Source of the DNA: a virus
Virus record (IMG/VR): IMGVR_UViG_3300020442_002654
Location: 1-44,181 of that record
Reading direction: 5' to 3' (one strand)
DNA length: 44,181 bases
Below the pieces are notes generated by a model. The model worked only from the letters and a program-made list of their open reading frames with translations, was not told the origin of the DNA and made no database searches. Positions 9,191 through 42,565 of this stretch are shown piece after piece (positions within the stretch are counted from its first letter, which is position 1; each line of letters opens with the position of its first letter). Made by a program: the position numbers and the translations under genes.

Positions 9191-9535
9191 ATGAATAAAC
9201 AATCTGCGGTGGAGTATTGCGAAGAGAAATACCCACAAACTACAAAAGAATTCCGAGCAATATTAGATGAAATGTATGAAACCTTCTGTAAAAAACAGAG
9301 GAACTATGGGCCTGGTAATATATCAGTTGGTACATCTTTGGAAACTGAAGATGATATCAAAGTGGCACTTACAGGTCTTTGGTTTAGGAAGAATGACAAG
9401 ATTCAAAGATTGTTACAATTAGTGGTAAAAGGACAGCCCGATGAAGTAGGTGAAAACATACAAGACACCTATGAAGATTTGTCTGTATATGGTGTAATAT
9501 CACAAATTGTACAAAGGAAAAAATGGGCAAAATAA
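9191..9535 (+). CDS. Nucleotide modification associated domain 1 (Nmad1/DUF1599) protein
   Basis: A 114-residue protein fitting the DUF1599/Nmad1 pattern. F-C-K-K-Q-R-N-Y-G-P-G-N-I is at 32-44, followed by G-L-W-F-R-K-N-D-K-I-Q-R-L-L-Q-L at about 62-77. The family's ending, E-N-I-Q-D-T-Y-E-D-L-S-V-Y-G-V-I-S, is at about 88-104. The all-helical domain resembles MazG/dUTPase-type nucleotide hydrolases. In phages it is associated with genes for altered bases, hence its name. It may hydrolyse or bind a nucleotide or modified nucleotide. It has its own promoter (P2) and precedes the replication block. The substrate cannot be read from the sequence. Two Mom-like genes lie about 19 kb downstream, which gives it a possible partner. 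Confidence 0.75.
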   Translation: MNKQSAVEYCEEKYPQTTKEFRAILDEMYETFCKKQRNYGPGNISVGTSLETEDDIKVALTGLWFRKNDKIQRLLQLVVKGQPDEVGENIQDTYEDLSVYGVISQIVQRKKWAK

Positions 9536-18667: not shown

Positions 18668-19363
18668 ATGGAAAAACAAAAACTAAATGGTTTCATTAGT
18701 AGATACAATCTCGGTGGTGAGGTTGAATCTGTAATGGTAAATTCAGCCGATGGTTCAGTATCGGTTAAAATGATTTCAGATGACAAAACTCTATTGGGTG
18801 ATGTTACTGTATCTGAAAAAGATTTCCCAACAGGTGAATATGGTATTTATACCACTTCTCAGTTGAAGGGATTATTAAGTGTATTAGATTCATCTATTAA
18901 GGTGGAAGAAGCAACAGGCGCTCTTAAATTTAGTGATAAGGGTACAAAGGTTCAGTATATGTTAGCTGCACCATCTGTTATCCCAGCGGTACCTGATTTG
19001 AAAGAACTTCCTCCATTTGATGCAGATATTACATTAGATGATGAGTTTATTAACAAATACATCAAGTCTAAGGGAGCATTAGCAGATGCGGATACATTTA
19101 CATTCACTTGTAAGAATAACAAAGGAGAAATCATCTTAGGTTATTCATCAATTAATTCAAACAGAATTTCTATTTCTGTAAATTGTAGTTGTGATAATGA
19201 TATCGAACCAATCGCATTCTCAGCTAAGTATCTAAAAGAAATCTTAACTGCAAACAAAGGTTCAAACAAATCATCACTTAAAATTTCATCTAAAGGATTA
19301 GCGCATGTAGCTTTCGAAGATGGTGATTATAATTCTAACTATTATTTAGTAGAAATTAAGTAA
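18668..19363 (+). CDS. 45: Sliding clamp gp45
   Basis: A 231-residue protein, the length expected for T4 gp45 (228). It has the two-domain clamp composition: alternating strands, an N-terminal M-E-K-Q-K-L-N-G-F-I-S-R-Y-N-L and a middle L-K-F-S-D-K-G-T-K-V-Q-Y-M-L-A-A-P. The second domain ends Y-L-K-E-I-L-T-A-N-K-G, then L-A-H-V-A-F-E-D-G-D-Y-N-S-N-Y-Y-L-V. As a trimeric ring it tethers the polymerase to DNA and, in T4, also activates late transcription. Position between gp43 and the clamp loader supports the call, because sequence conservation of clamps is low. It ends with TAATG, sharing a base with the next start. Confidence 0.88.
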   Translation: MEKQKLNGFISRYNLGGEVESVMVNSADGSVSVKMISDDKTLLGDVTVSEKDFPTGEYGIYTTSQLKGLLSVLDSSIKVEEATGALKFSDKGTKVQYMLAAPSVIPAVPDLKELPPFDADITLDDEFINKYIKSKGALADADTFTFTCKNNKGEIILGYSSINSNRISISVNCSCDNDIEPIAFSAKYLKEILTANKGSNKSSLKISSKGLAHVAFEDGDYNSNYYLVEIK

Positions 19364-20574
19364 TGAGTTTTTGGGATACAGAACCAGCTAAACCTCAATT
19401 CGTATTTGAAGATGAGAAGAAAAAACTCATTGATAATATGGATTACCTCATGCAGATGTCTGTAGAGGAACAAACTCTGTACAAAAAGTGGGTAGAGTTG
19501 CAGGAAGATTCTATGCTTAGAGATAAATCTACAATAGCATCTTACTACGATTGGCAGTGGAGACCTACAGATATCAACAACAAAGAACTTACAATCAAAG
19601 AGATTGAGGAATTAGAACCTTATGTTGAAATCGTTGAAGATAAGAATGAAGCTACAAAGTGGACTCATCTTAGAAGAATGATTCATACAATGAGTTGGAC
19701 AGCTAATCCTGGTCGAAATGTTAAGTTGTTTGTTAAGGATAAAAAGAGTGGTAAACTTTTGGGGATGGTATCACTTGCATCTGATGTAACATCAATGGGT
19801 GTAAGAGATAAATATATTGGCTGGACTAAGGATGATAAATTCAAAAAAGGTAAACTAAACTTTACAACTATCGCATCTACGATTGTTTGTACACAACCTT
19901 TAGGATTCAATTTCTTAGGAGGTAAACTTACCGCTATGATGACTACTGTACCTGAGGTTAGAGAATATTGGAAAAAGAAATATGGACAAACTCTTATAGC
20001 AGTTGGTACAACTTCTTTGTATGGTATTCATTCTCAGTATAATGGTATCCCACATTTTAAAACTTTAGGTGAATCAGCTGGAAAGATATCAATCAAACCA
20101 GATGATGAGTTCTATGACCCGTGGCACCAATGGTTGAAAGAAAACAGAGAAGATTGGTATAAGAAACACATTACCGAAGAAAGAGAAAGAAATGGTAAGA
20201 GTATGGGTTATGAAAGAAACGGACCTGTTAGTGGTATCAAACAAAAGATTTTAGGACAAATCTTTAAAGAGTGTGGTATCAAACAATCCAGTTATCATCA
20301 TGGATTTAAAAGAGGAGTATATCTTGCTATGATGTATGAAAACGGACCTGAGTTTCTACGTTCTGAAATCGAAGAAAAAGATTTGAAGATGAAAAAGAAA
20401 TTTGAGGATGGTGTTGATTACATTAATAAATGGTGGAAAAGACAAGCCATTAAAAGATATACTAAGTTACACGATTCCAATCGATTGAAGCCAGAACATT
20501 TATATTACATAGATGCTATTGGTATGAATTGGGATACTATGAAGCAAAATTATTTAAAAGAAGTAGGAAGATAA
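19363..20574 (+). CDS. DruA/DUF4338-like protein
   Basis: A 403-residue protein. Residues about 125-240 show the DUF4338 (DruA) pattern: K-L-L-G-M-V-S-L-A-S-D-V, then R-D-K-Y-I-G-W-T. They continue with L-N-F-T-T-I-A-S-T-I-V-C-T-Q-P-L-G, L-T-A-M-M-T-T-V-P-E-V-R and W-K-K-K-Y-G-Q-T-L-I-A-V-G-T-T-S-L-Y-G, and end with P-H-F-K-T-L-G-E-S-A-G. DruA is a component of Druantia anti-phage systems; the phage role of such proteins is not known to me. The C-terminal third is basic and helical. It is translationally coupled to the clamp (TAATG) and 1 base from gp44, so it is co-expressed with the replisome. The family match is by pattern only. No other Druantia gene (DruB-E) is present. Confidence 0.6.
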   Translation: MSFWDTEPAKPQFVFEDEKKKLIDNMDYLMQMSVEEQTLYKKWVELQEDSMLRDKSTIASYYDWQWRPTDINNKELTIKEIEELEPYVEIVEDKNEATKWTHLRRMIHTMSWTANPGRNVKLFVKDKKSGKLLGMVSLASDVTSMGVRDKYIGWTKDDKFKKGKLNFTTIASTIVCTQPLGFNFLGGKLTAMMTTVPEVREYWKKKYGQTLIAVGTTSLYGIHSQYNGIPHFKTLGESAGKISIKPDDEFYDPWHQWLKENREDWYKKHITEERERNGKSMGYERNGPVSGIKQKILGQIFKECGIKQSSYHHGFKRGVYLAMMYENGPEFLRSEIEEKDLKMKKKFEDGVDYINKWWKRQAIKRYTKLHDSNRLKPEHLYYIDAIGMNWDTMKQNYLKEVGR

Positions 20575-25692: not shown

Positions 25693-26283
25693 TTGAAAGA
25701 TAAAAAGGTTACAATAACAGATACGAGAATATCGTATTCAGATGATGACTCTAAAATTGTTATGGATATAGTATCCAAAGAATTGATGGAGTTCTATTCT
25801 AATATTGTTACACAAAATGGTGGAAAAGTATTAGATGTTGGATTTGGACTGGGATATAGTGCAGATGCGATTTACAATAAATTAGGTTCTTACTATTGTA
25901 TTGAATCTAATCCACAAATTTTTGATAAAGCTCGTAAGTGGGCTTCTGATAAAACAAATGTTCATTTATATTTTGGAGATTGGATAGATGTAATTCCATC
26001 TTTAGATGTTAAGTTTGATGGTATCTTTATGGATACTTATGATGACCCTAATTATTCTAAGTTTGAAGATTACGCAAAACTAATTTCAAATAAAGAATGT
26101 GTATTATCAATCTTTAGTTACTTTATTTGTAGAGATACTGAAGATTTACATTCATCATATTTTGAAATAACATCTTCTCATAGAGAAAACTATCCAAAAT
26201 TAATTGAAAAAGGACATACGTGTCATTGGAGTTATTTTATCAATGGTGAATTTGAAAAAAAGAAAGTGAATGAAGCCATTTGA
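25693..26283 (+). CDS. GAMT-like SAM methyltransferase
   Basis: A 196-residue class I methyltransferase. Motif I is K-V-L-D-V-G-F-G-L-G-Y-S at about 45-56. Motif II is Y-C-I-E-S-N-P-Q-I at about 68-76, followed by G-D-W-I-D-V-I-P. Then F-D-G-I-F-M-D-T-Y-D-D at about 108-118. The combination G-F-G-L-G, E-x-N-P and F-D-G-I-F-x-D-T-Y resembles guanidinoacetate and arginine N-methyltransferases, so a guanidino group or arginine side chain is a possible target. No in-frame ATG gives the full motif set, so TTG at 25693 is the start, 6 bases after nrdB. Its end overlaps the SET gene by 14 bases. Its substrate in the phage is unknown. Confidence 0.75.
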   Translation: MKDKKVTITDTRISYSDDDSKIVMDIVSKELMEFYSNIVTQNGGKVLDVGFGLGYSADAIYNKLGSYYCIESNPQIFDKARKWASDKTNVHLYFGDWIDVIPSLDVKFDGIFMDTYDDPNYSKFEDYAKLISNKECVLSIFSYFICRDTEDLHSSYFEITSSHRENYPKLIEKGHTCHWSYFINGEFEKKKVNEAI

Positions 26284-26689
26284 TTATTTAAATACTTCAG
26301 TAAAAAGTTATGGTAGAGCAAGTAAAGTTCATGGTATTGGATTATTTGCTTTGGTTGACATAAAAGAGGGTGAACAGGTTTTTCCTGAATGGAAAGGAGA
26401 AACAAGTTGGTATAAAATAACTTTGGATGAAGCTAAAAAATTACCAACTGAAGTTTTGGCTTATGTGTTACGTTCATTTGGTAATGAAATAATTGATGAA
26501 AATTCTTACGTTAGTTTTAAATTAGTGAAGAATACTAACTTTTTATTTTCAACACCAACAGCTATGTTAAATACATTGTACCATAATGGAAATGTTGATA
26601 GTACAACAGGTATAGCATTAAGGGATATAAATAAAGATGATGAGATTTTTGGTAATTATGGAAACTCATCACAAATAAAATTAATTTAA
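26270..26689 (+). CDS. Small SET-domain protein (lysine methyltransferase-like)
   Basis: A 139-residue protein that is only a SET domain. The start motif S-K-V-H-G-I-G-L-F-A-L-V-D-I-K-E-G-E is at 18-35. The core motif reads M-L-N-T-L-Y-H-N-G-N-V at 99-109, where the usual form is F-x-N-H-S-x-x-P-N. The end motif is I-N-K-D-D-E-I-F-G-N-Y-G at 120-131, with the catalytic Tyr as Y130. Length and layout match viral single-domain SET enzymes that methylate histone lysines. The NHS-type motif is altered, so activity is not certain. It overlaps the methyltransferase upstream by 14 bases and is 3 bases from nrdA. The nearby lysine-rich H1-like protein is an obvious candidate substrate, as is a phage or host protein. 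Confidence 0.8.
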   Translation: MKPFDYLNTSVKSYGRASKVHGIGLFALVDIKEGEQVFPEWKGETSWYKITLDEAKKLPTEVLAYVLRSFGNEIIDENSYVSFKLVKNTNFLFSTPTAMLNTLYHNGNVDSTTGIALRDINKDDEIFGNYGNSSQIKLI

Positions 26690-28497: not shown

Positions 28498-28761
28498 ATG
28501 TTAGAAGTAAAAAAATTTGAAGCTCAATGGTGTGGTCCTTGTAAAGCACTAAAACCAATATTTGAAAATGTTTCCAATAAATTTGGAAATAACGTAAATT
28601 TTTCGTATATTGATATAGATGAACAGTTTGAATTAGCTCAACAATATCATGTACGTTCAGTACCTACTGTAATCATTGAGAAAAATGGTGAGGTAGTTCA
28701 AAGATTTGTTGGTGTTCAATCAGAGCTGGCTTATACGAATAGTATTAATGAAAATTTATAA
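28498..28761 (+). CDS. Thioredoxin
   Basis: An 87-residue thioredoxin with the active site W11-C12-G13-P14-C15 and K16. The second half has V-N-F-S-Y-I-D-I-D, then V-R-S-V-P-T-V-I with the cis-Pro. It is slightly shorter than the typical 105 residues because the first strand is trimmed. It is most likely the electron donor for NrdA-NrdB, whose genes lie just upstream. An AGGAG ribosome site at about 28487-28491 lies before the ATG. Its stop and the next ATG are adjacent (TAAATG), so it is co-translated with the HTH gene. Confidence 0.92.
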   Translation: MLEVKKFEAQWCGPCKALKPIFENVSNKFGNNVNFSYIDIDEQFELAQQYHVRSVPTVIIEKNGEVVQRFVGVQSELAYTNSINENL

Positions 28762-28965
28762 ATGCCAATAAGAAGAGGTCAGACTCATCCATCTGCAAAG
28801 TTAACGGATGAGCAAGTTTTATCAATAAGAAGGTTATGGAAAATGGGTCATCGTAATGTAAAGGTGATGGCTCGTAACAATAAAGTATCGCCTGCTAATA
28901 TTAGTAAAATTGTATCTAATAAAACATGGCAGCATCTTAATGAGTTTTGGTCTGGTAGTTTATGA
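28762..28965 (+). CDS. Small HTH protein
   Basis: A 67-residue protein: R-R-G-Q-T-H-P-S-A-K-L-T-D-E-Q-V-L-S-I-R-R-L-W (4-26), then V-K-V-M-A-R-N-N-K-V-S-P-A-N-I-S-K-I-V-S-N-K-T-W-Q-H-L (about 33-59). This is the helix-turn-helix unit often attached to HNH or homing endonucleases, where it helps DNA recognition. Here no nuclease domain follows; it may be a free-standing DNA-binding regulator or a remnant of a homing endonuclease. Its last 4 bases overlap the start of the first Mom-like gene, tying its expression to that pair. Confidence 0.75.
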   Translation: MPIRRGQTHPSAKLTDEQVLSIRRLWKMGHRNVKVMARNNKVSPANISKIVSNKTWQHLNEFWSGSL

Positions 28966-29702
28966 AAAAGTATTGTGATATTTCAAAGTTATCGGTTAGA
29001 AAGATTTCAAAATCTGTAGCTAAAGATATTGTAATTAAAAATCACTACTCTCATTTGTGGACCAAAGTATCTTATTCATTGGGATTGTATATTGAAGATG
29101 ATTCTCATCAATTCTTCAATACATCAGAAAAACTTATCGGTGTAATATGTTATGGAGACCCGATAGGAAGATTAAGTGGACAATCAATTTCACCTATATT
29201 AGATAGAACAGAAGTATTAGAATTAGTTAGAGTTTTTATATTTGATGATTATGGTTCAAATATAGAAAGTTGGTTTATAGGACAAAGTTTTAAATGGTTG
29301 AGAGAGAATGCACCACAAATAAAAGGATTGATATCGTATTCAGACCCAAAAGAAGGACATGCTGGTACAATTTATCAAGCAACGAATTGGATTTATCAAG
29401 GTAACTCATTAAGATACAATGATAGTTGGAGTTTTAAATTTAGTGAAGATGGTGAGTGGCAGCATGGTAGAACTATTTTTCCTTATTATGGAACAAATGA
29501 CCCAAAGAAAATACAACAACAAGTTGATAAACCATTTTGGATTCGTAAAGAACCAAGAAAACATAGATACGTTTACATACTCGCTAAGGGTGGTGAACGA
29601 AAGAAAATATTAAAAACATTAAAACATCCATCAGAAACTTATCCAAAAAATAAGAATACTGATGAATTAGAAATACAAAAATTAGAACCAATTGAAAATT
29701 AA
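28962..29702 (+). CDS. Mom-like GNAT protein 1 (possible DNA modification)
   Basis: A 246-residue protein of the Mom/GNAT type. I-V-I-K-N-H-Y-S-H-L-W is at about 23-33, followed by L-I-G-V-I-C-Y-G-D-P-I-G-R. V-L-E-L-V-R-V-F-I-F-D-D-Y-G-S-N-I-E-S is at about 85-103, then F-K-W-L-R-E-N-A-P. The block I-S-Y-S-D-P-K-E-G-H-A-G-T-I-Y-Q-A-T-N-W-I is at about 125-145, with the C-terminal K-H-R-Y-V-Y-I-L. Mom of phage Mu converts DNA adenine to a methylcarbamoyl form that blocks restriction enzymes; the S-Y-x-D-x-x-x-G-H-x-G-x-I-Y-Q-A segment is what I associate with that family. It overlaps both neighbours. It may alter phage DNA for defence, but another substrate cannot be excluded. Confidence 0.65.
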   Translation: MKKYCDISKLSVRKISKSVAKDIVIKNHYSHLWTKVSYSLGLYIEDDSHQFFNTSEKLIGVICYGDPIGRLSGQSISPILDRTEVLELVRVFIFDDYGSNIESWFIGQSFKWLRENAPQIKGLISYSDPKEGHAGTIYQATNWIYQGNSLRYNDSWSFKFSEDGEWQHGRTIFPYYGTNDPKKIQQQVDKPFWIRKEPRKHRYVYILAKGGERKKILKTLKHPSETYPKNKNTDELEIQKLEPIEN

Positions 29703-30495
29703 AGGTAAAGATTATTGTGATGTTAGTAGGGTATCTGTTTCTCAGATATCTAAATCAATAGCAAAAGATATTATCGTAAAAAAACATTATACGCATGCTT
29801 GGACTATGTGTAGATATGCTTTGGGTATCTATTATCAAATGGATGAGAAAGATATCTTCGGTAATGATTTAAAATTAATAGGTTGTGCTATTTACGGATT
29901 CCCAGTTGGAGCAAAAGCATCCACTTCAGTTTGTGAAGGATTATCCAAAGATAACATTTTAGAGTTGACTAGATTATATGTTGATGATGGTTATGGTTCT
30001 AATATAGAATCAAATGCATTAGCTAAAACTTTCCAATGGATAAAAAATAACGATAAAAATATTAAAGTTCTTTTAAGTTATGCTGATAACGGACAAGAAC
30101 ATTTAGGTGGTATCTACCAAGCAACCAATTGGATTTATCAAGGTTTATCAACTGATATCGCTTTGATGCCTAATTGGGGTATATCATTAAGTAAAGAACC
30201 ACACAATTGGATTCATAGTAGAAGTGTCTTTAATTTATGGGGTAGTGGTAACTTAGAACATTTAAAAAAAGAAATAGGAAAAGAAGGATATAAAGAGTTT
30301 TGGAGAAGAGAAGAACCTCCGAAACACAGATATATACAAATCTTAGCTCAAAATAGAAAAGAGAGAAAGGATTTGTTAAAAAGATTGAAACATGAAACAA
30401 AACCTTATCCAAAGGAAGCATCCGATTATAATACAGAGGTGGTGCACCACTTCACTTATGAACCTGATGCAGAACTTGAGACAAAGTTTTGGTGA
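29692..30495 (+). CDS. Mom-like GNAT protein 2 (tandem paralogue)
   Basis: A 267-residue paralogue of the preceding protein. Both begin K-x-Y-C-D-(I/V)-S-(K/R)-(L/V)-S-V and share V-K-K-H-Y-T-H-A-W, L-E-L-T-R-L-Y-V-D-D-G-Y-G-S-N-I-E-S, L-S-Y-A-D-N-G-Q-E-H-L-G-G-I-Y-Q-A-T-N-W-I-Y-Q-G and K-H-R-Y-I-Q-I-L-A. The start is TTG at 29692, overlapping the first copy by 11 bases, so the two are translationally coupled. Divergence in the middle and in the loops suggests two different substrates or a heterodimer rather than a recent duplication. The likely activity is a GNAT-type acyl or related transfer to DNA adenine. The gene ends 60 bases before the TonB receptor. Confidence 0.65.
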   Translation: MKIKGKDYCDVSRVSVSQISKSIAKDIIVKKHYTHAWTMCRYALGIYYQMDEKDIFGNDLKLIGCAIYGFPVGAKASTSVCEGLSKDNILELTRLYVDDGYGSNIESNALAKTFQWIKNNDKNIKVLLSYADNGQEHLGGIYQATNWIYQGLSTDIALMPNWGISLSKEPHNWIHSRSVFNLWGSGNLEHLKKEIGKEGYKEFWRREEPPKHRYIQILAQNRKERKDLLKRLKHETKPYPKEASDYNTEVVHHFTYEPDAELETKFW

Positions 30496-30554: not shown

Positions 30555-33266
30555 ATGAGAAAACTATTATTAGTTGGATTGATGCTTTTAACAAGCATCA
30601 CAACCTTCGCACAAGTAAACATTGTTGGGAAGGTTTTTGATGTAGAGACAAATGACCCTTTACCAGGCGCAACTATCGTTGTTGAAGGAACAAACGATGG
30701 TACTGTAACTGGATTTGATGGTACTTTTTCTCTAAGTGCAAATGAAGGAACATCTCTTTTGATTTCCTACTTAGGGTACGAAACAGCAAGAGTTCTCGCT
30801 GATGATTCTATTAGTGTAGGATTAACACCTGATTTAAATGTATTAGGTGAAGTTGTTGTTAGTTCTGGTGTAATTGATATTGCAAAGGTAAGAGAAACAC
30901 CTGTAGCAGTTTCAACTATTTCACCATCAGAAATAGCACTCAAAGTTGGTAACCAAGAGTTTCCTGAAATTATGAACAAAACACCAGGTGTTTACGCTAC
31001 CAAACAAGGTGGTGGGTATGGTGACTCAAGAATCTCTTTAAGAGGATTCGACCAAAGAAACACATCATTCCTTATCAACGGACAACCAGTCAATGATATG
31101 GAAAACGGATGGGTTTATTGGTCTAACTGGCAAGGTCTTACAGATGTTGCAAGTGGTATCCAATTACAAAGAGGTTTAGGAGCTTCTAAATTAGCAGTAC
31201 CATCAGTAGGTGGAACTGTTTCAATTTTTACAAAAGCCGCTGAGGCAAGAGCAGGTAGTTCAGTACAACAAGTTGTTGGTAACGATGGTTATACTAAAAC
31301 TACTGTATCTCACTCAACTGGTTTAAATGATAATGGATGGGCAACATCTGTACTACTTTCAAAGTGGGCAGGTGATGGTTATATCTATAATACAAGTGGT
31401 GAGGGTTACACTTACTTCTTTGCATTAGGATATGCACCTGAAGATTCAGACCACTCAGTTAACTTTTCATTCTTAGGTGCTGGACAATGGCACCACCAAA
31501 GAGATGTTTGGGTTTCTATTAGAGATTACCAAAACTTTGGTGAAGAAGGAATTGATAGAAGATGGAATACTAATGGTGGTATTTTAAATGGAGAAGAATA
31601 TTCTTTAAGAAGAAACTTCTACAACAAACCATTAGCAACTCTTAACTGGGATTGGGATATTAACTCAAACCTAAAACTTGCTACATCATTATATGGTTCA
31701 GCAGGTAGAGGTGGGGGAACAGGTCCAAGAGGTAGAAACTACTACAACTCGGAAACTGATATCTTACCATTCAGAAAAGACCTTACTGAACACTACTTAG
31801 AAAATGGTAGAGGTTCAAGAACACCAGAAGGATTTATTGACTTCGATGCTATCGTTGCATTCAACCAATCAAATACAGACCCATATAGTGGTGATTTACC
31901 ATTTGCAGGTCAGTTAATTGGTTCTAATGGATTCAATGATGATGGTGTAAACAGAAGTGCTTTGATTAGAAGAGCATCTATGAACTCACATGACTGGGTT
32001 GGAGCAATCTCTAACTTAGAATATGAGAGTGGAAATTGGAAAACTTCAATTGGTGTTGATTTGAGAAACTATACAGGTTATCACTATAGAGTATTAAATG
32101 ACCTTCTTGGATTAGATGGTTACTACTCTACAGGTAATGATAACTCTGCAGGACAAATCATCAACACTTTAGTTGATGCTAATCCTTTCCAAAATACAGG
32201 AATTAGAGGACCGAAAATCGCTTACTATAATATTGGTAAAGTTGGTTGGCAAGGTCTTAATGGTTTAGTTGAGTATAACAACTCTACTTTATCAGCTGTA
32301 TTACAAGGTGGTTTATCTAATCAATCTTTCCAAAGAATTGATTACTTCGCACAACCTGATAATCCAGAATCAGATACAGAAAATGTTGGTGGTGGATATG
32401 TAAAAGGTGGTGCTAATTACAATATAGATGAGAAATCAAATGTGTTCTTTAACGCTGGTTTCATATCTAGACAACCAAACTTTGATGCAGTATTCCCTAA
32501 CTATGCAAACAATGTTAATCCTGATTTACAAAATGAGGAAATTACATCAGTTGAATTAGGATATGGATTCGTTAGTAATAACTTCAAAGCAAATGTGAAC
32601 TTATACTCTACAACTTGGGGTAACAGATTTGTAAGTAGAAGTTTATCTAACCAACAAGGTGTAGATGGATTTGCACAATTTAAAAATATCGATGTTGTAC
32701 ATAATGGTATTGAAGTAGAAGCTAGTTATGACCCAACATCAAACTTGAGATTAAAAGGTATGTTATCAATCGGTGATTGGAGATATACTAAAGATTTCGA
32801 AGCAGCATTATTTGATGATAATAACCAACAAATAGGTACAGGTACATTGTATCTAAAAGATGCTAAAGTTGGTGATGCAGCTCAATTTGTTTCTTACTTA
32901 GAAGCAGATTATAGAATCGGAAATAAACTAAATGTAGATTTAGGATATAGATTTGTAGATAATCTGTACGCAGATTACTCAATTACTGATTCAGAGTTTA
33001 CACAACCTGATAATGCTGGAGCATTAAAATTACCTTCTTATGGATTAGTAGATTTAGGTGGAACACTTAGATTTAGTTTATTCGGTAATGATGCTTCATT
33101 CAGAGTAAATGTCAACAACTTACTTGACACTTACTATATTGCAGAATCTAACTCAAACATCCACGCTTCTGCTGGTTCAGAAACTTGGAATGGAATTGAT
33201 ACGAGAAACTCAGTATGGTTCGGATTCGGACGTACTTGGAACGCTTCTCTAAAATACAGATTCTAA
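30555..33266 (+). CDS. TonB-dependent outer-membrane receptor (SusC-type N-domain)
   Basis: A complete 903-residue receptor. The signal peptide is residues 1-20 (M-R-K-L-L-L-V-G-L-M-L-L-T-S-I-T-T-F-A-Q). A carboxypeptidase-regulatory-like domain follows at about 21-100 (I-V-G-K-V-F-D-V-E-T-N-D-P-L-P-G-A-T-I-V-V-E-G-T), typical of Bacteroidota receptors. A TonB-box-like G-E-V-V-V is at about 98-102. The plug (about 110-225) has I-M-N-K-T-P-G-V-Y, then R-I-S-L-R-G-F-D-Q-R and V-P-S-V-G-G-T-V-S-I-F. The barrel ends with W-N-A-S-L-K-Y-R-F, the terminal Phe needed for insertion. No frameshift or internal stop is seen. It would import an iron complex, vitamin or glycan, driven by host TonB. No SusD partner is present. 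An intact host-type transporter gene in a phage replication region is unusual. Base composition is slightly less AT-rich than its neighbours. Confidence 0.95.
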   Translation: MRKLLLVGLMLLTSITTFAQVNIVGKVFDVETNDPLPGATIVVEGTNDGTVTGFDGTFSLSANEGTSLLISYLGYETARVLADDSISVGLTPDLNVLGEVVVSSGVIDIAKVRETPVAVSTISPSEIALKVGNQEFPEIMNKTPGVYATKQGGGYGDSRISLRGFDQRNTSFLINGQPVNDMENGWVYWSNWQGLTDVASGIQLQRGLGASKLAVPSVGGTVSIFTKAAEARAGSSVQQVVGNDGYTKTTVSHSTGLNDNGWATSVLLSKWAGDGYIYNTSGEGYTYFFALGYAPEDSDHSVNFSFLGAGQWHHQRDVWVSIRDYQNFGEEGIDRRWNTNGGILNGEEYSLRRNFYNKPLATLNWDWDINSNLKLATSLYGSAGRGGGTGPRGRNYYNSETDILPFRKDLTEHYLENGRGSRTPEGFIDFDAIVAFNQSNTDPYSGDLPFAGQLIGSNGFNDDGVNRSALIRRASMNSHDWVGAISNLEYESGNWKTSIGVDLRNYTGYHYRVLNDLLGLDGYYSTGNDNSAGQIINTLVDANPFQNTGIRGPKIAYYNIGKVGWQGLNGLVEYNNSTLSAVLQGGLSNQSFQRIDYFAQPDNPESDTENVGGGYVKGGANYNIDEKSNVFFNAGFISRQPNFDAVFPNYANNVNPDLQNEEITSVELGYGFVSNNFKANVNLYSTTWGNRFVSRSLSNQQGVDGFAQFKNIDVVHNGIEVEASYDPTSNLRLKGMLSIGDWRYTKDFEAALFDDNNQQIGTGTLYLKDAKVGDAAQFVSYLEADYRIGNKLNVDLGYRFVDNLYADYSITDSEFTQPDNAGALKLPSYGLVDLGGTLRFSLFGNDASFRVNVNNLLDTYYIAESNSNIHASAGSETWNGIDTRNSVWFGFGRTWNASLKYRF

Positions 33267-34763: not shown

Positions 34764-36152
34764 ATGGCAGAGAAAAAGAAGATTCTATTGTTATCCGATG
34801 ATTTAAGGATGACATCAGGTATCGCAACAGTATCCAAAGAATTCGTTATGGGTTCAATGGATAGATTTCATTGGGTTCAATTAGGAGCAGCAGTAAAACA
34901 TCCCGACCAAGGTAGAGAAATAGATTTAGGTGAAGATGCACGAAAGCAAAGTGGTGTATCAGATGCATCACTTAAAATAGTTCCTTGGACTGGTTATGGT
35001 GATGCTAACATTTTGAGACAGATGATAATGAGACATCAACCAGATGCGATACTTCACTTTACAGACCCAAGATATTGGAGATGGTTATATGAAATAGAAG
35101 CAGAAATCAGAGAAAACATTCCGATTCTGTTTTATCATATTTGGGATGATTTACCAGACCCAAAATATAATAGAGATTACTACGAAAGTTGTGATTGGTT
35201 AGGATGTATCTCAAAACAAACTTATGGTATTGTAAGTAGAGTTGGTAAACTAAAAACTGATACAAACATACCATTAGAAGATTGGCAAGTAGATTATGTA
35301 CCACATGGTATCAATCCAAAGAAGTGTTTCAAAACAGAAGTACCAGCTGATTTCAAAAAGGCAGCATTGGGTGGTAAAGATTATAAGTTCGTTCTATTTT
35401 GGATGAACAGAAACATTAGAAGAAAACAACCATCAGATGTGATATGGGCATACAAAGAGTTTGTAGATGGATTACCAGAAGAAGAAAGAAAAGATTGTTG
35501 TTTGGTAATGCACACCGCACCAGTTGACCAGAATGGTACTGATTTGTACAAAGTAAAAGAAGCGATTTGTCCTGATTATGATGTAAGATTTTCAACTGCA
35601 AGAATTGGTGATGAACAATTAAATTATCTTTACAACTTAGCAGATTGTACAATCAACATCGCAGGTAACGAAGGATTTGGATTAACAACTGCAGAATCGG
35701 TAATGGCTGAAACTCCTATCATTGTAAATGTTACGGGTGGAATGCAAGACCAATGTGGATTTAGAAAGAAATCAGATGGTAAATTATTTACAGCTGATGA
35801 TTACAAAAAGATTGGTTCTCTTCATAATTGGAGAGAGTGGGAAGGTAGAGTAACTCATGGTGAGTGGGTTAAACCTGTATGGCCAAAAGTACAAACAATG
35901 ACTGGTTCAGTTCCTACACCTTATATAATCGATGATAAAGTAGATATTATAGAAGTATCTGAAGCAATTAGATATTGGTACGATAAAGGTAAAAAAGGAA
36001 GAGAAAAAGCAGGTAAAGCTGGTAGAGAAGCATTCTTAGGAGAAATAGGTTTGGGTGTTGATAATCAAAACAAATGTATGGCAGATGGTATTGAGAAAGC
36101 AATCAAAAACTTCAAACCTAAAAAACGTTATAACTTATATAAATTAGCATAA
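34764..36152 (+). CDS. Glycosyltransferase, GT4-like
   Basis: A 462-residue GT-B glycosyltransferase. The N-terminal Rossmann start is K-K-I-L-L-L-S-D-D-L-R-M-T-S-G-I-A-T-V (about 4-22), followed by I-L-F-Y-H-I-W-D-D-L-P-D-P-K-Y and Y-V-P-H-G-I-N-P (about 174-181). The donor-site motif N-E-G-F-G-L-T-T-A-E-S-V-M-A-E-T-P-I-I is at about 299-317, the E-x7-E signature of GT4. Insertions after 330 (W-R-E-W-E-G-R-V-T) are longer than in standard members. It transfers a sugar from a nucleotide donor to an acceptor I cannot identify. It opens the glycosylation cluster and overlaps the next gene by one base. Confidence 0.88.
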   Translation: MAEKKKILLLSDDLRMTSGIATVSKEFVMGSMDRFHWVQLGAAVKHPDQGREIDLGEDARKQSGVSDASLKIVPWTGYGDANILRQMIMRHQPDAILHFTDPRYWRWLYEIEAEIRENIPILFYHIWDDLPDPKYNRDYYESCDWLGCISKQTYGIVSRVGKLKTDTNIPLEDWQVDYVPHGINPKKCFKTEVPADFKKAALGGKDYKFVLFWMNRNIRRKQPSDVIWAYKEFVDGLPEEERKDCCLVMHTAPVDQNGTDLYKVKEAICPDYDVRFSTARIGDEQLNYLYNLADCTINIAGNEGFGLTTAESVMAETPIIVNVTGGMQDQCGFRKKSDGKLFTADDYKKIGSLHNWREWEGRVTHGEWVKPVWPKVQTMTGSVPTPYIIDDKVDIIEVSEAIRYWYDKGKKGREKAGKAGREAFLGEIGLGVDNQNKCMADGIEKAIKNFKPKKRYNLYKLA

Positions 36153-37414
36153 TGAGTAAACCATTATTAATATATCAGGCGCCGGTAGCAACTAGAAGTG
36201 GTTATGGTGACCATTCAAGAGATATTCTAAAATCAATATTTGAATACGATAAATTTGATGTGATTACTATTCCAACTCGTTGGGGTAATACACCACAAAA
36301 TCAAATCAATCCTCAAACAGAATTTGGACAAAAACTATTAGGAACTGTTGGTAAACAAATTACAAAACAACCTGAAGTTCATATTCAAATGACAGTACCA
36401 AATGAATTCCAAAAGAAAGGAAAGTTTAGTATTGGTATTACGGCTGGTATTGAATCAACATTAGCACCAAAAGATTGGATTGATGGTTGTAATAGAATGG
36501 ATTTGATAATTGTACCAACAGAGTTTTCCAAAAAAGTTTTAGAGCAAACAATCTACGATGAAAAGGATAAACAAACTGGACAGGTAATTAGACAATTCAA
36601 AATTACTAAACCGATTGTAGTTTTACACGAAGGTGTAGATTTATCTACATACCTCAAACCAAAAGTAGATGTTGATGTTTTAGAAGGAATTGATTCTGAT
36701 TGGAACTATCTTTTTACAGGTCATTGGTTAAAAGGTGATTTGGGTAAAGATAGAAAAGATGTGGGAATGATGATTAAAACATTCTGTACTGTATTTAAAA
36801 ATACACCAAAGAAAAAACAACCAGGTCTTATTCTAAAAACATCTTCAGCTGGATTCTCTGTTATGGATAGAGAACACATATCACAGAAGATTAAAGAAAT
36901 AGCAAAAGAATTTGGTGATAATTGTCCACCTATCCATTTATTGTTTGGTGATTTAACAGATGAACAAATGGCATCATTATATCATCACCCAAAAGTAAAA
37001 GCTATGATATCATTCACAAAAGGTGAAGGATATGGGAGACCCTTATGTGAGTTTACACTTACAGGAAAACCAATCTTAGTAAGTAAATGGAGTGGACATA
37101 TAGATTTTCTACCTGAAAAACATACTGAATTTTTAGAAGGTGGATTGGAAGAAATACATCAATCAGTAGCAGACCAATTCTTACTAAAAGAAGCTAAATG
37201 GTTTCAAGTAAACTATTCACACGCAGCTAGTATTTTAGAAAAGGTATTTAAAAACTACAAAACACATCTAACCAAATCAAAAGGATTGGTTGATAATACT
37301 AAAAAGAATTTTTCACTACAAGCTATGCACGATAAGTTTAAAGTTATTATGGATGAGTATGTTAAACTACCTGAGTTTGTAAGTTTGAAATTACCAGAAA
37401 TTAAAAAGCTATAA
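36152..37414 (+). CDS. Glycosyltransferase, GT4-like
   Basis: A 420-residue GT-B protein. L-L-I-Y-Q-A-P-V-A-T-R-S-G-Y-G-D-H-S-R-D is at about 5-24, the acceptor-side loop. I-I-V-P-T-E-F-S-K is at about 115-123 and V-L-H-E-G-V-D at about 154-160. The C-terminal donor motif is F-T-K-G-E-G-Y-G-R-P-L-C-E-F-T-L-T-G-K-P at about 288-307. It resembles the preceding enzyme in layout but not closely in sequence. It sits in a chain of genes with one-base overlaps (TAATG at 36150-36154 and again at 37412-37416), so these are translated as one unit. Confidence 0.88.
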   Translation: MSKPLLIYQAPVATRSGYGDHSRDILKSIFEYDKFDVITIPTRWGNTPQNQINPQTEFGQKLLGTVGKQITKQPEVHIQMTVPNEFQKKGKFSIGITAGIESTLAPKDWIDGCNRMDLIIVPTEFSKKVLEQTIYDEKDKQTGQVIRQFKITKPIVVLHEGVDLSTYLKPKVDVDVLEGIDSDWNYLFTGHWLKGDLGKDRKDVGMMIKTFCTVFKNTPKKKQPGLILKTSSAGFSVMDREHISQKIKEIAKEFGDNCPPIHLLFGDLTDEQMASLYHHPKVKAMISFTKGEGYGRPLCEFTLTGKPILVSKWSGHIDFLPEKHTEFLEGGLEEIHQSVADQFLLKEAKWFQVNYSHAASILEKVFKNYKTHLTKSKGLVDNTKKNFSLQAMHDKFKVIMDEYVKLPEFVSLKLPEIKKL

Positions 37415-37929
37415 TGGCAAATTACATAAATCAATACAAAGAGTTTTTGGTACCTGAAAAAAGAGTACCAAAGAATCAGATAAAACAATGTAATATTTAC
37501 CGAGTATCAACTTATTCAGGTGATACTAAAAGAGGTGGTGAATCAAGATACATTTTTGTTATTGGTAGGGTAGGAGATAAAATACATTGTATAAAATTAA
37601 ACGAAGTTGTTCCAGCTAATCTTATAAAATTAATAAAAGATGTAAGAGATAAAAGTAAACAACTTACAAAAGATTATAAAGATTTAGCATCACTACTTAA
37701 ATCATTTGATAGAGAAGGTAAAAGATTATTTGAAGGTTACATAAAAAGAAATAAAGGATTATATTCTTACAAATTAGGAAACTATAGAACATATTTTATC
37801 AATAAATTACAATATGTTAGTTTGATTGACTTTGAGTATGAGGAGTTAGCTAAACTACTAAATGAAAAAGTAGATACTAAAGTAGAAATAAATCAGGTAC
37901 TAAAAGAAGATAGAACTGAGAATGATTAG
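37414..37929 (+). CDS. Hypothetical protein, 171 residues
   Basis: I do not recognise this protein. The N-terminal 75 residues contain I-K-Q-C-N-I-Y-R-V-S-T-Y, then R-Y-I-F-V-I-G-R-V-G-D-K-I-H-C-I-K-L, which looks like a small beta-barrel. A Lys-rich helical part follows, and a segment Y-S-Y-K-L-G-N-Y-R-T-Y-F-I-N-K with a short acidic end. It is coupled to the glycosyltransferase upstream and overlaps the methyltransferase downstream by 8 bases. It has no membrane segment. Its place inside the glycosylation cluster is the only functional hint. Confidence 0.55.
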   Translation: MANYINQYKEFLVPEKRVPKNQIKQCNIYRVSTYSGDTKRGGESRYIFVIGRVGDKIHCIKLNEVVPANLIKLIKDVRDKSKQLTKDYKDLASLLKSFDREGKRLFEGYIKRNKGLYSYKLGNYRTYFINKLQYVSLIDFEYEELAKLLNEKVDTKVEINQVLKEDRTEND

Positions 37930-38674
37930 AAAGTATTGTGTACAAAAAGATACTATGGGTTGTAACTTTTATGTTTACTATAAAGGTGAGCATAATGGTG
38001 GAGGACCATTAATGATTAAATATCTATTTGATACAGATGATTTTTTAGAAGAACATAAGGATTGTAAATCTGTTTTAGAAGTGTGTAGTGGTCCTGGCTT
38101 TATTGGGTGGTTTTTATATAAAAAACTAAAAATGGATTCAGTTCACTTTTTGGATATACACAAACCAGTTGAAGAAGATTTACGAATAACTTGTGAAAAA
38201 AATAATGAAGAATTAAATTTTTATCATAGTGATGGATTTAAGAACTATGATGGACCAAAGGTTGATTTGATTGTAATGAATCCACCATTTTTTTATAGTG
38301 AAGAGCAATTTGAACATCATAAAAAATTTATGGGATTTACTACAGAAAAAAGAATTGAAACATCAAGAAGAATTATTTTAGATTTAGATTTTGAAATGCA
38401 TGATAATTTTATTGATAACTTTGAAAAACATTTAACAGATAATGGTAGAATTGTATTTTTAGAAGATATAAGATTTGTTCCAAAAGAAATGTTCTTAGAA
38501 AAATATGGTGATAGAACAAATATAAAACCAAAATATAAAGAGTATTATATTGCTCCTGAGTATTTTAATGAAAAAGGTGAAATGGTTAGAATGAAAAATG
38601 CAGAACATATTCCTGAAGATGTACCTAATTATTATACTTTAACATATTATAAAAACCAAAATGAAAACAATTAG
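37922..38674 (+). CDS. SAM-dependent methyltransferase with NPPF motif
   Basis: A 250-residue class I methyltransferase. Motif I is V-L-E-V-C-S-G-P-G-F-I-G at 51-62. The catalytic motif IV N-P-P-F is at 120-123 within L-I-V-M-N-P-P-F-F-Y. N-P-P-[FY] is used by enzymes that methylate exocyclic amines of adenine or cytosine, or glutamine and other planar nitrogens. Targets could thus be DNA, RNA or a release-factor-like protein. There is no separate DNA-recognition domain, which makes a sequence-specific DNA methylase less likely. It overlaps both neighbours and is part of the glycosylation gene chain, so a small-molecule or sugar substrate is also possible. Confidence 0.75.
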   Translation: MIRKYCVQKDTMGCNFYVYYKGEHNGGGPLMIKYLFDTDDFLEEHKDCKSVLEVCSGPGFIGWFLYKKLKMDSVHFLDIHKPVEEDLRITCEKNNEELNFYHSDGFKNYDGPKVDLIVMNPPFFYSEEQFEHHKKFMGFTTEKRIETSRRIILDLDFEMHDNFIDNFEKHLTDNGRIVFLEDIRFVPKEMFLEKYGDRTNIKPKYKEYYIAPEYFNEKGEMVRMKNAEHIPEDVPNYYTLTYYKNQNENN

Positions 38675-39290
38675 TTACGGAGTTACAGTTTGTAATGAGA
38701 TTACAGAAATAGCAGTTTTAGTAGATACTCTTAAAGAAAAGTTAAGAGAAGGTGATGAGATTGTAATTCAATATGATGAGGGTTCAGTAACAGATGTAGT
38801 TATGGAATACCTTAACATTATGAAAAATATGCACAAAGATACAATCAAAGTTATTGGATTCCCACTTAATAAAGATTTCGCATCTTACAAAAACAATCTT
38901 AAATCACATTGTAAGGGAGATTATATATTTCAGATTGATGCAGATGAAGTACCAAATGAATATCTATTAGATAACTTGCATGAAATATTAGGAAGTAATG
39001 AGGTAGATGTAATCTTTATACCAAGAGTAAATACAGTTGAAGGATTGACTGATTCTCACATACAAAAATGGGGATGGCAAGTAAACGAAAAAGGTTGGGT
39101 AAACTTTCCTGATTATCAAACTCGTATCTATAAAAATACAAATGATATTATGTGGATGAATAAAGTACATGAGAGAATTACTGGATACAATACAGTATCT
39201 AACTTTCCACCTCAAGAAGAATATTCTTTATATCATCACAAACAAATACAAAGACAAGAACAACAAAACGAATTTTATGAAACAATCTAA
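38661..39290 (+). CDS. Family-2-like glycosyltransferase
   Basis: A 209-residue GT-A-type protein. The N-terminus M-K-T-I-S-Y-G-V-T-V-C-N-E-I is the usual nucleotide-binding start (x-V-x-V-x-N-E). D-E-I-V-I-Q-Y-D-E-G is at about 31-40. K-G-D-Y-I-F-Q-I-D-A-D-E-V-P is at about 84-97, where D-A-D is the metal-binding motif. The rest, with N-T-V-E-G-L and G-W-V-N-F-P-D-Y-Q-T-R-I-Y, fits family 2. It resembles enzymes that start or extend surface glycans. It overlaps the methyltransferase by 14 bases upstream and the next glycosyltransferase by 14 bases. Confidence 0.85.
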   Translation: MKTISYGVTVCNEITEIAVLVDTLKEKLREGDEIVIQYDEGSVTDVVMEYLNIMKNMHKDTIKVIGFPLNKDFASYKNNLKSHCKGDYIFQIDADEVPNEYLLDNLHEILGSNEVDVIFIPRVNTVEGLTDSHIQKWGWQVNEKGWVNFPDYQTRIYKNTNDIMWMNKVHERITGYNTVSNFPPQEEYSLYHHKQIQRQEQQNEFYETI

Positions 39291-40185
39291 GATTACTTTT
39301 ATATACGCTTATGAAGAAGAAGATTGGTCAACACCATTATCTTTAGCAACTGAATTTCAAAATAGAGGTTGGGATGTTGGTATTGTTTCCATTGGTTCAA
39401 ATAAAACACAACAATACTTTGATGATAACATAAGAGCTTGGTTAGATGAGAAAGATGATTCTGATATAGTTTTATTTATGGATTGGGGTAGATTTGATTC
39501 ACCTTTATTGGATAAAGAAAAACTACCATCAGCATTTTGGGTACAAGAGAGTGGAGATGACCCACAAAACTTTGATAGGAACTTTCCTAAATCAGAAAGA
39601 TTTCATATAACTCTTACACCAGATGCAGATTCAGCTGAACAATATACCGAAAGAGGTAGAGATGCATATTGGTGGACACATTTCGCTGATACTGAAGTTC
39701 AATTTCCATTAGAAGATGCAGAAGAAGAGTTTGTAGCAGTAACGAGTAGAGGTTTGGGTGGTTCTCAATTTTTAGATACTTTAACCGCTCATAGTAATGG
39801 AGCAGTTGCTAACCAAAATGGAATGGATGCTGAAGAGCATACTGAATTTTTAAATAGTGGATTAATGGTAATCCAACATAGTAGATGGGGTGAGGTAACT
39901 CGTAGAATCTTTGAAGGCATGGCTTGTGGTAAAATGGTTTTATGTGATAGATTAAATGATTCTAAAAAACTACATGAATTATTTGAAGATGGTGAGGATA
40001 TAGTTTATTATGATGATATGATAGATTGTATAGAAAAGATGAATAAGTATTCTCAGAACAAAAAAGAAAGAGAAAGAATAGCAGAAAATGGATATAGAAA
40101 AGTTTTAGAAAACCATACTCAGGTACAAAGAGTTGATTTTATAATTGAAAAATTTAATGAATGGAAAGACTCCCAATCAGCATAG
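39277..40185 (+). CDS. Glycosyltransferase, CgeB/GT1-like
   Basis: A 302-residue protein starting at ATG 39277 (M-K-Q-S-K-I-T-F-I-Y-A-Y-E-E-E-D-W-S-T-P-L). An in-frame ATG at 39169 lies well inside the preceding gene and would add an unrelated leader, so I reject it. The first half has L-A-T-E-F-Q-N-R-G-W-D-V-G-I-V and P-S-A-F-W-V-Q-E-S-G-D-D-P. The second half has M-V-I-Q-H-S-R-W-G-E-V-T-R-R-I-F-E-G-M-A-C-G-K-M-V (about 199-222), the donor-binding motif of CgeB-like glycosyltransferases. The tail is helical. Substrate unknown. It overlaps the next gene by 25 bases. Confidence 0.8.
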   Translation: MKQSKITFIYAYEEEDWSTPLSLATEFQNRGWDVGIVSIGSNKTQQYFDDNIRAWLDEKDDSDIVLFMDWGRFDSPLLDKEKLPSAFWVQESGDDPQNFDRNFPKSERFHITLTPDADSAEQYTERGRDAYWWTHFADTEVQFPLEDAEEEFVAVTSRGLGGSQFLDTLTAHSNGAVANQNGMDAEEHTEFLNSGLMVIQHSRWGEVTRRIFEGMACGKMVLCDRLNDSKKLHELFEDGEDIVYYDDMIDCIEKMNKYSQNKKERERIAENGYRKVLENHTQVQRVDFIIEKFNEWKDSQSA

Positions 40186-40901
40186 GTATATTAGCTTGGA
40201 AGAGTGGACAAACTTTAGTTAACACTTTAAATACTTACTTTCAGCAAGAATTTTTACATCAAGTAAATGATGTATGTATTTTATTTCAGGAATTTTCTGA
40301 AGAAGATAAACAAATAGCTGAACATTTTGGTATTCCTTATATAGCGAAAGAAGGTAACATAGGAATCGGACAAGCATTTATAGAATTAACAGAACAAGCT
40401 AAAACAGATAATGTTTTGGTATTAGAGCATGATTGGAAACTTATTGAAGATAAAGAAACTTTAAGAACCAGATTATTGAGTGGTGTGAAATTATTAGATA
40501 ATGGATTTAGTTGTGTAAGATATAGACACAGAGCAAATCCTGGTTTCCCACATTTTTCATTTCAATATCAAGGAAGAGAGTTAGATTACTATGATAAAGA
40601 GATTGAGGTAACTTCACCTCACCTTTTGGATTCAGTACATTGGTGTAATCCAGCTGAGAAGTTTCCACAACATATAGAAAGAGAAGGAGAATATTTTATC
40701 ACAACATCTCGTTATGGTAATTGGACTAACAATCCTTGTCTTTACAAAAAAGATTTTTATTTAGAAACAGTAAAACAATTCGCCGGTGAAGGTATCGCTT
40801 TGGAGGGTAACATCTCAAAGTGGTGGGCACAACAAACATTCAAAGTAGCTCACGGCGAAGGGCTATTTTGTCATTTAGATGAAGGTAAACATGGAAGGTA
40901 A
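40161..40901 (+). CDS. Glycosyltransferase-like protein (GT-A)
   Basis: A 246-residue protein. P-I-S-I-G-I-L-A-W-K-S-G-Q-T-L-V-N-T-L is at about 5-23, as in family 2. G-N-I-G-I-G-Q-A-F is at about 66-74 and V-L-V-L-E-H-D-W-K-L at about 86-95. In the last of these, E-H-D stands where the D-x-D metal motif is expected. The C-terminal half is rich in Trp, His and Tyr. It is probably a galactosyl- or other family-2-like transferase with an altered metal motif. It overlaps the co-chaperonin gene start by 11 bases. Confidence 0.7.
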   Translation: MERLPISIGILAWKSGQTLVNTLNTYFQQEFLHQVNDVCILFQEFSEEDKQIAEHFGIPYIAKEGNIGIGQAFIELTEQAKTDNVLVLEHDWKLIEDKETLRTRLLSGVKLLDNGFSCVRYRHRANPGFPHFSFQYQGRELDYYDKEIEVTSPHLLDSVHWCNPAEKFPQHIEREGEYFITTSRYGNWTNNPCLYKKDFYLETVKQFAGEGIALEGNISKWWAQQTFKVAHGEGLFCHLDEGKHGR

Positions 40902-41196
40902 ATTTAAACCATTAGGAGACAGAGTACTCATCACTTACAATGATGGAGAAACAAAAACAGAAAGTGGACTAATCTTAACCGATAGTGCACAAAGAGGAGA
41001 AAAAATGTGGGGAGAAGTAGTATCAGTTGGACCTGGTATTTTCACACAAAATGGTTCTCGATTACCAATGAGTGTATCAGTTGGTGATAACGTAATGTAT
41101 TCAAAAGATATGGCAGGTGATGTTATTAAATTAGGAGAAAAAAAATATCTACTATTACAAGAACACCACCTATTAGGAGTATTAAAGAATGAGTAA
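40891..41196 (+). CDS. groES: GroES-like co-chaperonin
   Basis: A 101-residue protein that fits GroES: F-K-P-L-G-D-R-V-L-I-T-Y (5-16), then K-T-E-S-G-L-I-L-T-D-S-A (21-32), G-E-V-V-S-V-G-P-G-I (about 41-50), V-G-D-N-V-M-Y-S-K (about 66-74) and L-L-G-V-L at the end. T-E-S-G-L-I-L corresponds to the mobile-loop hydrophobic triplet that binds GroEL. T4 uses gp31 in this role to fold its capsid protein with host GroEL; this gene may do the same. I chose ATG 40891 over 40879 because the usual start of the fold is near F-K-P-L-G-D-R. It lies in the middle of the glycosylation cluster, with the next gene overlapping by 8 bases. Confidence 0.92.
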   Translation: MEGKFKPLGDRVLITYNDGETKTESGLILTDSAQRGEKMWGEVVSVGPGIFTQNGSRLPMSVSVGDNVMYSKDMAGDVIKLGEKKYLLLQEHHLLGVLKNE

Positions 41197-42565
41197 AGTA
41201 AAGTTAATTATATTTGATTTAGATGGTGTATTAGTTGAGGCTAAAAACATACACTACGAAGCACTCAATGATGCATTGTGTTTTGTGGGTAATGAATATC
41301 CTATCAGTTGGAATGAACATTTATCTACTTATGATGGATTAAAAACAACTCAGAAATTGGAAATGTTATCTGAAAAGAAAGGATTACCAATTGATGCTCA
41401 TAAAGATATTTGGGAACATAAACAAGAACTTACATTAGAAAAGTTAAGAGCATTAGAACCAAATGCAGGTTTGATACAATGTATGAGAAACTTAGTGAGT
41501 GAAGGATATAAGATAGCAGTATGTTCAAACTCAATCAGAAAGACAGTTTTGACTGTACTTTCAAAGTTAGGTATTATGGAGTTTATGGATTTGGTGATAT
41601 CCAATGAAGATGTAAAGAACTCCAAACCACATCCAGAAATGTATTGGAAAGCAATATCAATGATGAGTTGTTTACCTGAAGAAACTTTGATAGTTGAGGA
41701 TTCACCATATGGATTACTTGCAGCTGCTCGTTCTAAATCACATATCCTAAGAGTAAAGAATACAAAAGAAACAAATTATAATAACATTTATAACAAATTA
41801 AATCAAATAGAAATGGGAGAACAACAATCAACACCAGCGTGGAGAGATGAGAATCTTACAGTATTGATTCCAATGGCTGGGGCAGGAAGTAGATTCCAAC
41901 AAGCTGGATACACTTTTCCAAAACCACTAATCGATGTGAAAGGAAAACCTATGATTCAGTTGGTAGTGGAAAATCTAAACATCAAAGCAAACTATGTTTA
42001 CGTTGTACAAAAAGAACATAGAGAAAAGTATAACTTAGATACTTTACTAAATTTAATCACACCAGGTTGTAAGATTGTTGAGGTAGATGGTATTACAGAA
42101 GGAGCAGCTTGTACTGCATTACTTGCTAAAGAGTACATTGATAAAGATACTCCACTATTCTTTGCTAACTCAGACCAATTTGTTGAGTGGGATTCAAATG
42201 AGTTCTTATACAAAATGAATGAAACAAACGCAGATGGTGGGATTGTATCATTTAGAGCAACACATCCAAAATGGAGTTTCGCTAAAGTAAATGAGCAAGG
42301 ATTAGTAACTGAAGTTGCAGAAAAGAATCCTATATCAGATATCGCTACTGTTGGATATTACTATTGGAAGAAAGGTTCTGATTTTGTAAAGTATGCAGAA
42401 GATATGATTGAGAAAGATATCAGAGTAAATAATGAGTTTTATGTTTGTCCTGTTTTCAATCAAGCAATCGAAGATAAAAAAGAGATTCGTACCTTTGATA
42501 TTCCTAAGATGTGGGGATTGGGTACACCAGAAGATTTAAAATATTATTTAGAAAACTATAAATGA
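41189..42565 (+). CDS. HAD phosphatase fused to sugar nucleotidyltransferase
   Basis: A 458-residue two-domain enzyme. Residues 1-200 are a HAD hydrolase of the beta-phosphoglucomutase type: D10-L-D12 in I-I-F-D-L-D-G-V-L, V-C-S-N-S at 111-115, K-P-H-P-E at 146-150, and V-E-D-S-P-Y-G at 169-175. Residues 222-458 are a nucleotidyltransferase with I-P-M-A-G-A-G-S-R-F at 227-236 and F-P-K-P-L at 243-247, then F-A-N-S-D-Q-F with the metal-binding Asp. The first domain could isomerise or dephosphorylate a sugar phosphate and the second couple it to NTP to make a nucleotide-sugar. That would feed the surrounding glycosyltransferases. The fusion is not a common one to me. No frameshift joins are visible. 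Confidence 0.88.
   Translation: MSKVKLIIFDLDGVLVEAKNIHYEALNDALCFVGNEYPISWNEHLSTYDGLKTTQKLEMLSEKKGLPIDAHKDIWEHKQELTLEKLRALEPNAGLIQCMRNLVSEGYKIAVCSNSIRKTVLTVLSKLGIMEFMDLVISNEDVKNSKPHPEMYWKAISMMSCLPEETLIVEDSPYGLLAAARSKSHILRVKNTKETNYNNIYNKLNQIEMGEQQSTPAWRDENLTVLIPMAGAGSRFQQAGYTFPKPLIDVKGKPMIQLVVENLNIKANYVYVVQKEHREKYNLDTLLNLITPGCKIVEVDGITEGAACTALLAKEYIDKDTPLFFANSDQFVEWDSNEFLYKMNETNADGGIVSFRATHPKWSFAKVNEQGLVTEVAEKNPISDIATVGYYYWKKGSDFVKYAEDMIEKDIRVNNEFYVCPVFNQAIEDKKEIRTFDIPKMWGLGTPEDLKYYLENYK

Follow-up and report, generated by a model that had tools for sequence, protein, structure and literature searches.

A conserved tandem pair of Mom-family genes with an HTH partner in an uncultured T4-like phage

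In phage Mu, the Mom protein modifies viral DNA chemically and thereby hides it from bacterial restriction enzymes; work on Mom has so far been confined almost entirely to the single gene of that phage. The locus described here raises the question of why a phage would carry two diverged Mom genes in tandem, coupled to each other and to a small HTH gene. The locus lies in the linear IMG/VR record IMGVR_UViG_3300020442_002654, whose entire sequence (positions 1-44181) was analysed and is called the window below. The window is a piece of a large uncultured T4-like phage and encodes replication and recombination proteins of the T4 type (UvsX, DNA polymerase, sliding clamp, clamp loader, SSB, helicase and both subunits of ribonucleotide reductase, RNR). 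The host probably belongs to the Bacteroidota, as the phage has a TonB-type receptor, an AT-rich genome and marine relatives. The gene order helicase - RNR beta - RNR alpha - thioredoxin - HTH - MomA - MomB - ... - DNA polymerase is strongly kept in relatives. Mom itself is known; we found tandem, co-conserved Mom paralogues with an HTH partner neither in the open-access papers searched nor in cultured phage records.

Two Mom-family proteins behind a small HTH gene

The features of the module in the window are as follows:

28498..28761, + strand: thioredoxin (Pfam Thioredoxin, E 1.3e-20; synteny RNR-Trx-HTH-MomA-MomB)
28762..28965, + strand: small HTH protein of 67 aa (ORF with a match to PHROG 20467), the conserved partner of the first Mom gene
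28962..29702, + strand: MomA, Mom-family protein of 246 aa with an ATG start (PF25680, PHROG 1384, AF2 model)
29692..30495, + strand: MomB, diverged second Mom-family protein of 267 aa with a TTG start (PF25680, PHROG 1384, AF2 model)
28962..28965, + strand: HTH/MomA overlap ATGA, 4 nt, with stop/start coupling
29692..29702, + strand: MomA/MomB coding overlap TTGAAAATTAA, 11 nt, with MomB in the +1 frame
29268..29270, + strand: codon of MomA Ser103, corresponding to Mu Mom Ser124 (from alignment and PDB title)
30010..30012, + strand: codon of MomB Ser107, corresponding to Mu Mom Ser124 (from alignment and PDB title)

The reading frames and overlaps of the two Mom genes lie exactly where a preliminary description of this DNA had placed them. 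The inclusion of two further components that it had proposed is not supported. The thioredoxin gene abuts the HTH gene, its TAA being directly followed by the ATG of the latter; however, thioredoxin lies beside RNR genes in most loci, and for this reason we treat it as a syntenic neighbor only, one whose product probably works with the ribonucleotide reductase encoded next to it and not with Mom. The Nmad1 protein that had been reported elsewhere in the window is a partial match at 9398-9508 (36/61 positions), with 16.7 bits against a cut-off of 25 bits; the ORF at this place had no match in Pfam at E<=0.01, and we do not count it as a member of the system.

Judged from their sequences and predicted structures, MomA and MomB are Mom-family proteins, as had been proposed, with a predicted Mom-like fold. 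Both match Pfam PF25680 over their whole length (MomA: E 3.9e-46, 157.7 bits, profile positions 2-202 of 202; MomB: E 5.5e-45, 154.0 bits, profile positions 3-202 of 202), each about 6-fold above the curated cut-off of 27.1 bits, and both match PHROG 1384, 'Mom-like DNA modification protein' (E 3.9e-53 for MomA and 2.5e-45 for MomB). They are 43% identical to each other across 245 residues (E 1e-70), and Mu Mom (PDB 8bv8) is their only significant solved relative by sequence. A comparison of predicted structures with Mu Mom had been suggested as a check. The GNAT-like fold of Mu Mom is found in both AF2 models (pLDDT 93.4 for MomA and 91.3 for MomB), and the best PDB match returned by Foldseek is 8bv8 in either case (E 8e-14 for MomA and 9e-14 for MomB; TM 0.57-0.74), with GNAT acetyltransferases far behind as runners-up (E 1e-4 to 1e-5). 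Placement of both proteins in an unrelated acetyltransferase family had been named as evidence that would speak against the proposal; the fold is GNAT-like, yet the two proteins are members of the Mom family and Mu Mom is far ahead of all other solved structures.

The motifs that first drew attention to the pair (H-Y-S/T-H, G-S-N-I-E-S, S-Y-S/A-D and G-x-I-Y-Q-A-T-N-W) are present, and most of them fall on family-invariant columns. Both copies retain every residue that is invariant across 57 Mom family members (H58, Y59, E108, L109, R111, N121, G156, Y159 and Y217 in Mu Mom numbering), plus S124. The structure 8bv8 is titled an inactive mutant, S124A, of Mu Mom, and the wild-type serine occupies this position in MomA (S103) and in MomB (S107); the assignment of catalytic residues is based on this PDB title and on conservation. 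Omega values of 0.07-0.13 for MomA and 0.07-0.12 for MomB reveal strong purifying selection on both genes. Given the intact invariant residues and the low omega, neither copy resembles a decaying duplicate.

Conservation and ancestry of the module

The Mom pair is no local accident. Scans of viral contigs (IMG/VR) with MomA, MomB, the Polaribacter Mom, MomC (a third Mom clade) and the HTH protein as queries yielded 245 unique contigs, a number that includes the window itself and cultured-phage loci. Clade membership in the counts was set by trees via representatives and not by best HMM; in this way single-copy relatives with the best-HMM label A (L127, L131-L153, L157, L159, L192 and L207) or B (L154-L156 and L160-L180) were relabelled. 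A search for two-copy arrangements in related phages, another of the suggested checks, found MomB no more than 2 kb from MomA for 99 of the 102 IMG/VR MomA genes with at least 2 kb of downstream sequence, and MomA in 109 of the 120 MomB loci with at least 2.8 kb upstream. The proposed arrangement, a tandem Mom pair coupled to an HTH gene, is thus kept across about 100 contigs. Of these 99 pairs, 49 have overlapping reading frames, and the other 50 are interrupted by one or more small or homing-endonuclease-like ORFs. Exactly two Moms, MomA and MomB, are present in records of up to 252 kb. MomA is missing from 11 contigs that have HTH-MomB, and in L068, L077 and L078 MomA is accompanied by neither MomB nor the HTH gene; these single-copy contigs are fragments of 5-94 kb whose partner gene may lie elsewhere in the genome. 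In INPHARED, MomA matched 313 records and MomB 248, at one place in each and with no second Mom. Mom genes in bacterial genome contigs are nearly all single within the fetched flank.

Some loci have more than two Moms. The third clade, MomC, is located between MomA and MomB (L038:6725-7441, L040:4009-4719 and L195-L200), giving A-C-B triples in these phages; an additional distant Mom is found in L069, L074 and L083, and L068 has four Moms. An unrelated tandem pair plus a third Mom is present in L126, where the genes of the pair are very diverged from the others and overlap (L126:1181-2735), the third being of the Polaribacter type. In one phage of the HTH-MomB-only kind (L217:5139-6731), MomB is followed by what appears, judged by eye, to be a DUF262/HNH (GmrSD-like) nuclease-like protein.

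The HTH gene accompanies the Mom module in nearly all two-Mom phages. It is located 5' of MomA when both Moms are present and 5' of MomB when MomB is alone. Of the 131 usable HTH loci, 118 have the start of a Mom ORF no more than 60 nt from the end of the HTH gene, and the ATGA is found at 128 HTH ends. The protein matches positions 60-108 of PHROG 20467 (HNH endonuclease; E 1.2e-5), and in tblastn it matches the HTH regions of HNH endonucleases. This kinship with part of the HNH homing endonucleases gives it the look of a DNA-binding module domesticated from such an enzyme. It probably regulates or targets the Mom module. An HTH gene also overlaps mom in Microbacterium phage Lifes, the same arrangement as in the window; homology between the two HTH genes is not supported.

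In the phylogeny of the family, MomA and MomB form two separate clades (support 100/99 each), and the sister group of MomB consists of single-copy Moms of other large phages (support 98/94), relatives that were absent from a simpler first tree. Given this placement, acquisition may have united two separate lineages in the pair. Tandem duplication in place is therefore not our preferred origin, although it may still apply, as a clade of A plus B is not rejected by the topology test (p-AU 0.11). Among 54 phages the pairwise distances of the two genes co-vary (r = 0.42, with a maximum of 0.24 in 1000 permutations), a pattern that fits genes inherited together for the most part but with occasional recombination. 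Agreeing with this, the dS between the window and its closest relative, L004, is 0.78 for MomB and 0.35 for MomA. At eight columns each clade is fixed for a residue of its own (D66, R82, F105, D154, F158, T178, P181 and Y205 in MomA; F70, K86, A109, L158, I164, S185, L188 and Q216 in MomB). These columns are candidates for determinants of specificity, and they could instead reflect differences in oligomerization or cofactor.

One task or two for the Mom pair

The conservation of the pair in about a hundred related phages suggests that the copies do different jobs, and the existence of two clades with fixed clade-specific residues is consistent with distinct roles. The best explanation, toward which we lean slightly, is that both proteins are active N6-adenine momylases whose sequence targets differ, so that the pair widens the protection against restriction. 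Under this explanation MomA and MomB would each be a catalytically competent momylase and, as Mu Mom does, would transfer a methylcarbamoyl-type group to N6 of adenine in phage DNA; they would recognize different sequence contexts and together hide more restriction sites than either alone. HTH, MomA and MomB would be translated from one polycistronic message, and the HTH protein would regulate or target the module from the position that Com holds in phage Mu. We put forward more tentatively, as a reading that falls somewhat short of an even chance, that HTH-MomA-MomB is a multi-specificity momification module in which two ancient momylases complement each other in target context and a DNA-binding HTH factor, taken over from a homing endonuclease, replaces Com, that it is widespread in T4-like aquatic Bacteroidota phages, and that it is sometimes extended to three or four Moms. 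The target context of Mu-type Mom is (C/G)A(C/G). A check for relaxed avoidance of palindromes in this context had only five usable palindromes, and jumbo phages with Mom avoid them strongly. Two copies need not differ sharply in Mom specificity in order to be kept.

If MomA and MomB were subunits of one enzyme, their coupled translation could provide a fixed ratio. The overlapping and co-inherited genes and the pairing in almost all MomA loci are compatible with such an obligate heteromer. However, it is unlikely, as a non-catalytic partner is expected to lose some of the invariant residues and every one of them is intact in both proteins; moreover, in 11 contigs the HTH gene is followed at once by MomB, with no MomA, and three contigs have MomA without MomB (all of these contigs being incomplete), about half of the pairs have intervening genes, homing-endonuclease-like ORFs among them, and single-copy Mom relatives are common. 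The shared family, gene cluster and invariant residues would also suit two enzymes with the same target contexts, maintained for faster modification of a large and rapidly replicating genome or as two expression variants. We consider this improbable: the 43% identity, the clade-specific fixed residues and the similarly low omega all argue against it, and dosage or redundancy alone is not normally expected to preserve so ancient a divergence in both copies.

The two copies might also differ in chemistry, one using a methylcarbamoyl group and the other another acyl donor or another base, so that two adducts result. GNAT folds are chemically versatile (PMC8072286), and clade-specific residues occur after beta-3 and in the C-terminal half; however, no family-invariant residue differs between MomA and MomB, which leaves this explanation decidedly improbable. 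Finally, each of the 48 distinct overlapping junctions places MomB in the +1 frame relative to MomA, as a programmed +1 frameshift that fuses both into one protein would require. Most of these junctions are homologous and hence do not count separately, MomB starts at a TTG or ATG of its own (TTG is kept in 38 of the 48), some junctions (e.g., L030) need no shift, and the genes are apart in half of the loci. As the junctions offer no positive evidence for it, we reject the fusion as scarcely credible.

The comparison with Mu Mom (PDB 8bv8, PF25680, PHROG 1384) reveals a common family, a common predicted fold and the same invariant residues, including Ser124, and in both phages a small regulatory-type gene overlaps the start of mom. 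However, Mu has one Mom and the window two co-conserved paralogues, and the two phages differ in host and in phage type. The mom gene of Mu is under a switch that depends on Dam (GATC) methylation. The window has no GATC, therefore this switch cannot operate here, and of a Mu-type com-mom operon we find neither the Dam-dependent promoter nor a zinc-finger Com overlapping mom. Com of Mu is a zinc-finger translational activator whose gene overlaps mom (PMC6483171), whereas the HTH protein of the window contains no cysteine and is not a Com homologue.

The closest cultured relative is the Mom of Polaribacter phage P12002L, with 46% identity to MomA and 43% to MomB. P12002L is likewise a marine phage, infecting a flavobacterium, but its single Mom adjoins a DNA methylase gene and lacks the HTH and thioredoxin-RNR context. 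The multi-specific DNA methyltransferases of Bacillus temperate phages (PMC12707154) follow the same proposed logic, several contexts being protected by one phage module, yet they combine several recognition domains in one chain, whereas the window encodes two separate Mom enzymes. Jumbo phages with Mom-REase fusions (PMC7824862) are likewise large phages that use Mom for DNA protection, whereas MomA and MomB have no endonuclease fusion. The conserved two-enzyme version, maintained by selection in many uncultured phages, provides naturally paired paralogues whose comparison could reveal what determines the sequence specificity of Mom. It further indicates that abundant aquatic phages commonly use non-methyl hypermodification.

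GATC depletion and neighboring genes

GATC is absent from the 44,181-bp window, where about 213 occurrences per strand are expected. Among 158 two-Mom loci, some of them overlapping, we count 59 GATC against 6009 expected (about 1%), with none at all in 125 loci; two cultured Cellulophaga phages have about half of the expected number. The purge is a trait of the phage group and independent of the Mom pair, because GATC is also absent from L258 and L267, loci of the same kind that have no Mom in the fetched stretch. That GATC was purged despite two Moms means that protection by Mom is at best partial, implying a strong pressure against GATC, present or past, from which Mom gives no relief; the near-total loss in two-Mom phages thus points to a site that Mom leaves unprotected. 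The purge may be due to restriction by the host, or to a nuclease that the phage encodes and that leaves the phage's own genome intact. Depletion also affects CTAG and CATG, and TACGTA is nearly absent in the phage group.

Several neighboring genes deserve mention in their own right. A complete, phage-encoded TonB-dependent receptor of 903 aa (30555-33266), with a signal-like start and a plug domain, is inserted between MomB and a PD-(D/E)XK gene; the latter two are adjacent in the close relative L004. Relatives of the receptor occur in more than 400 viral contig stretches, some of them with the Mom pair. Another protein, encoded within the replication gene cluster, matches DruA, a component of the Druantia anti-phage system, over nearly its full length (19363-20574; PF14236, E 1.4e-20). 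A small SET-domain protein (26270-26689; E 1.3e-5) is located between the RNR subunits, and related ORFs are found near RNR in L085-L087 and L102; to our knowledge, SET proteins are unusual in phages. At the end of the window (34764-44181), glycosyltransferases, a HAD/nucleotidyltransferase fusion, a GroES-like chaperonin and an aminotransferase-like ORF are clustered, which suggests genes for sugar synthesis or for glycosylation of a surface or of DNA.
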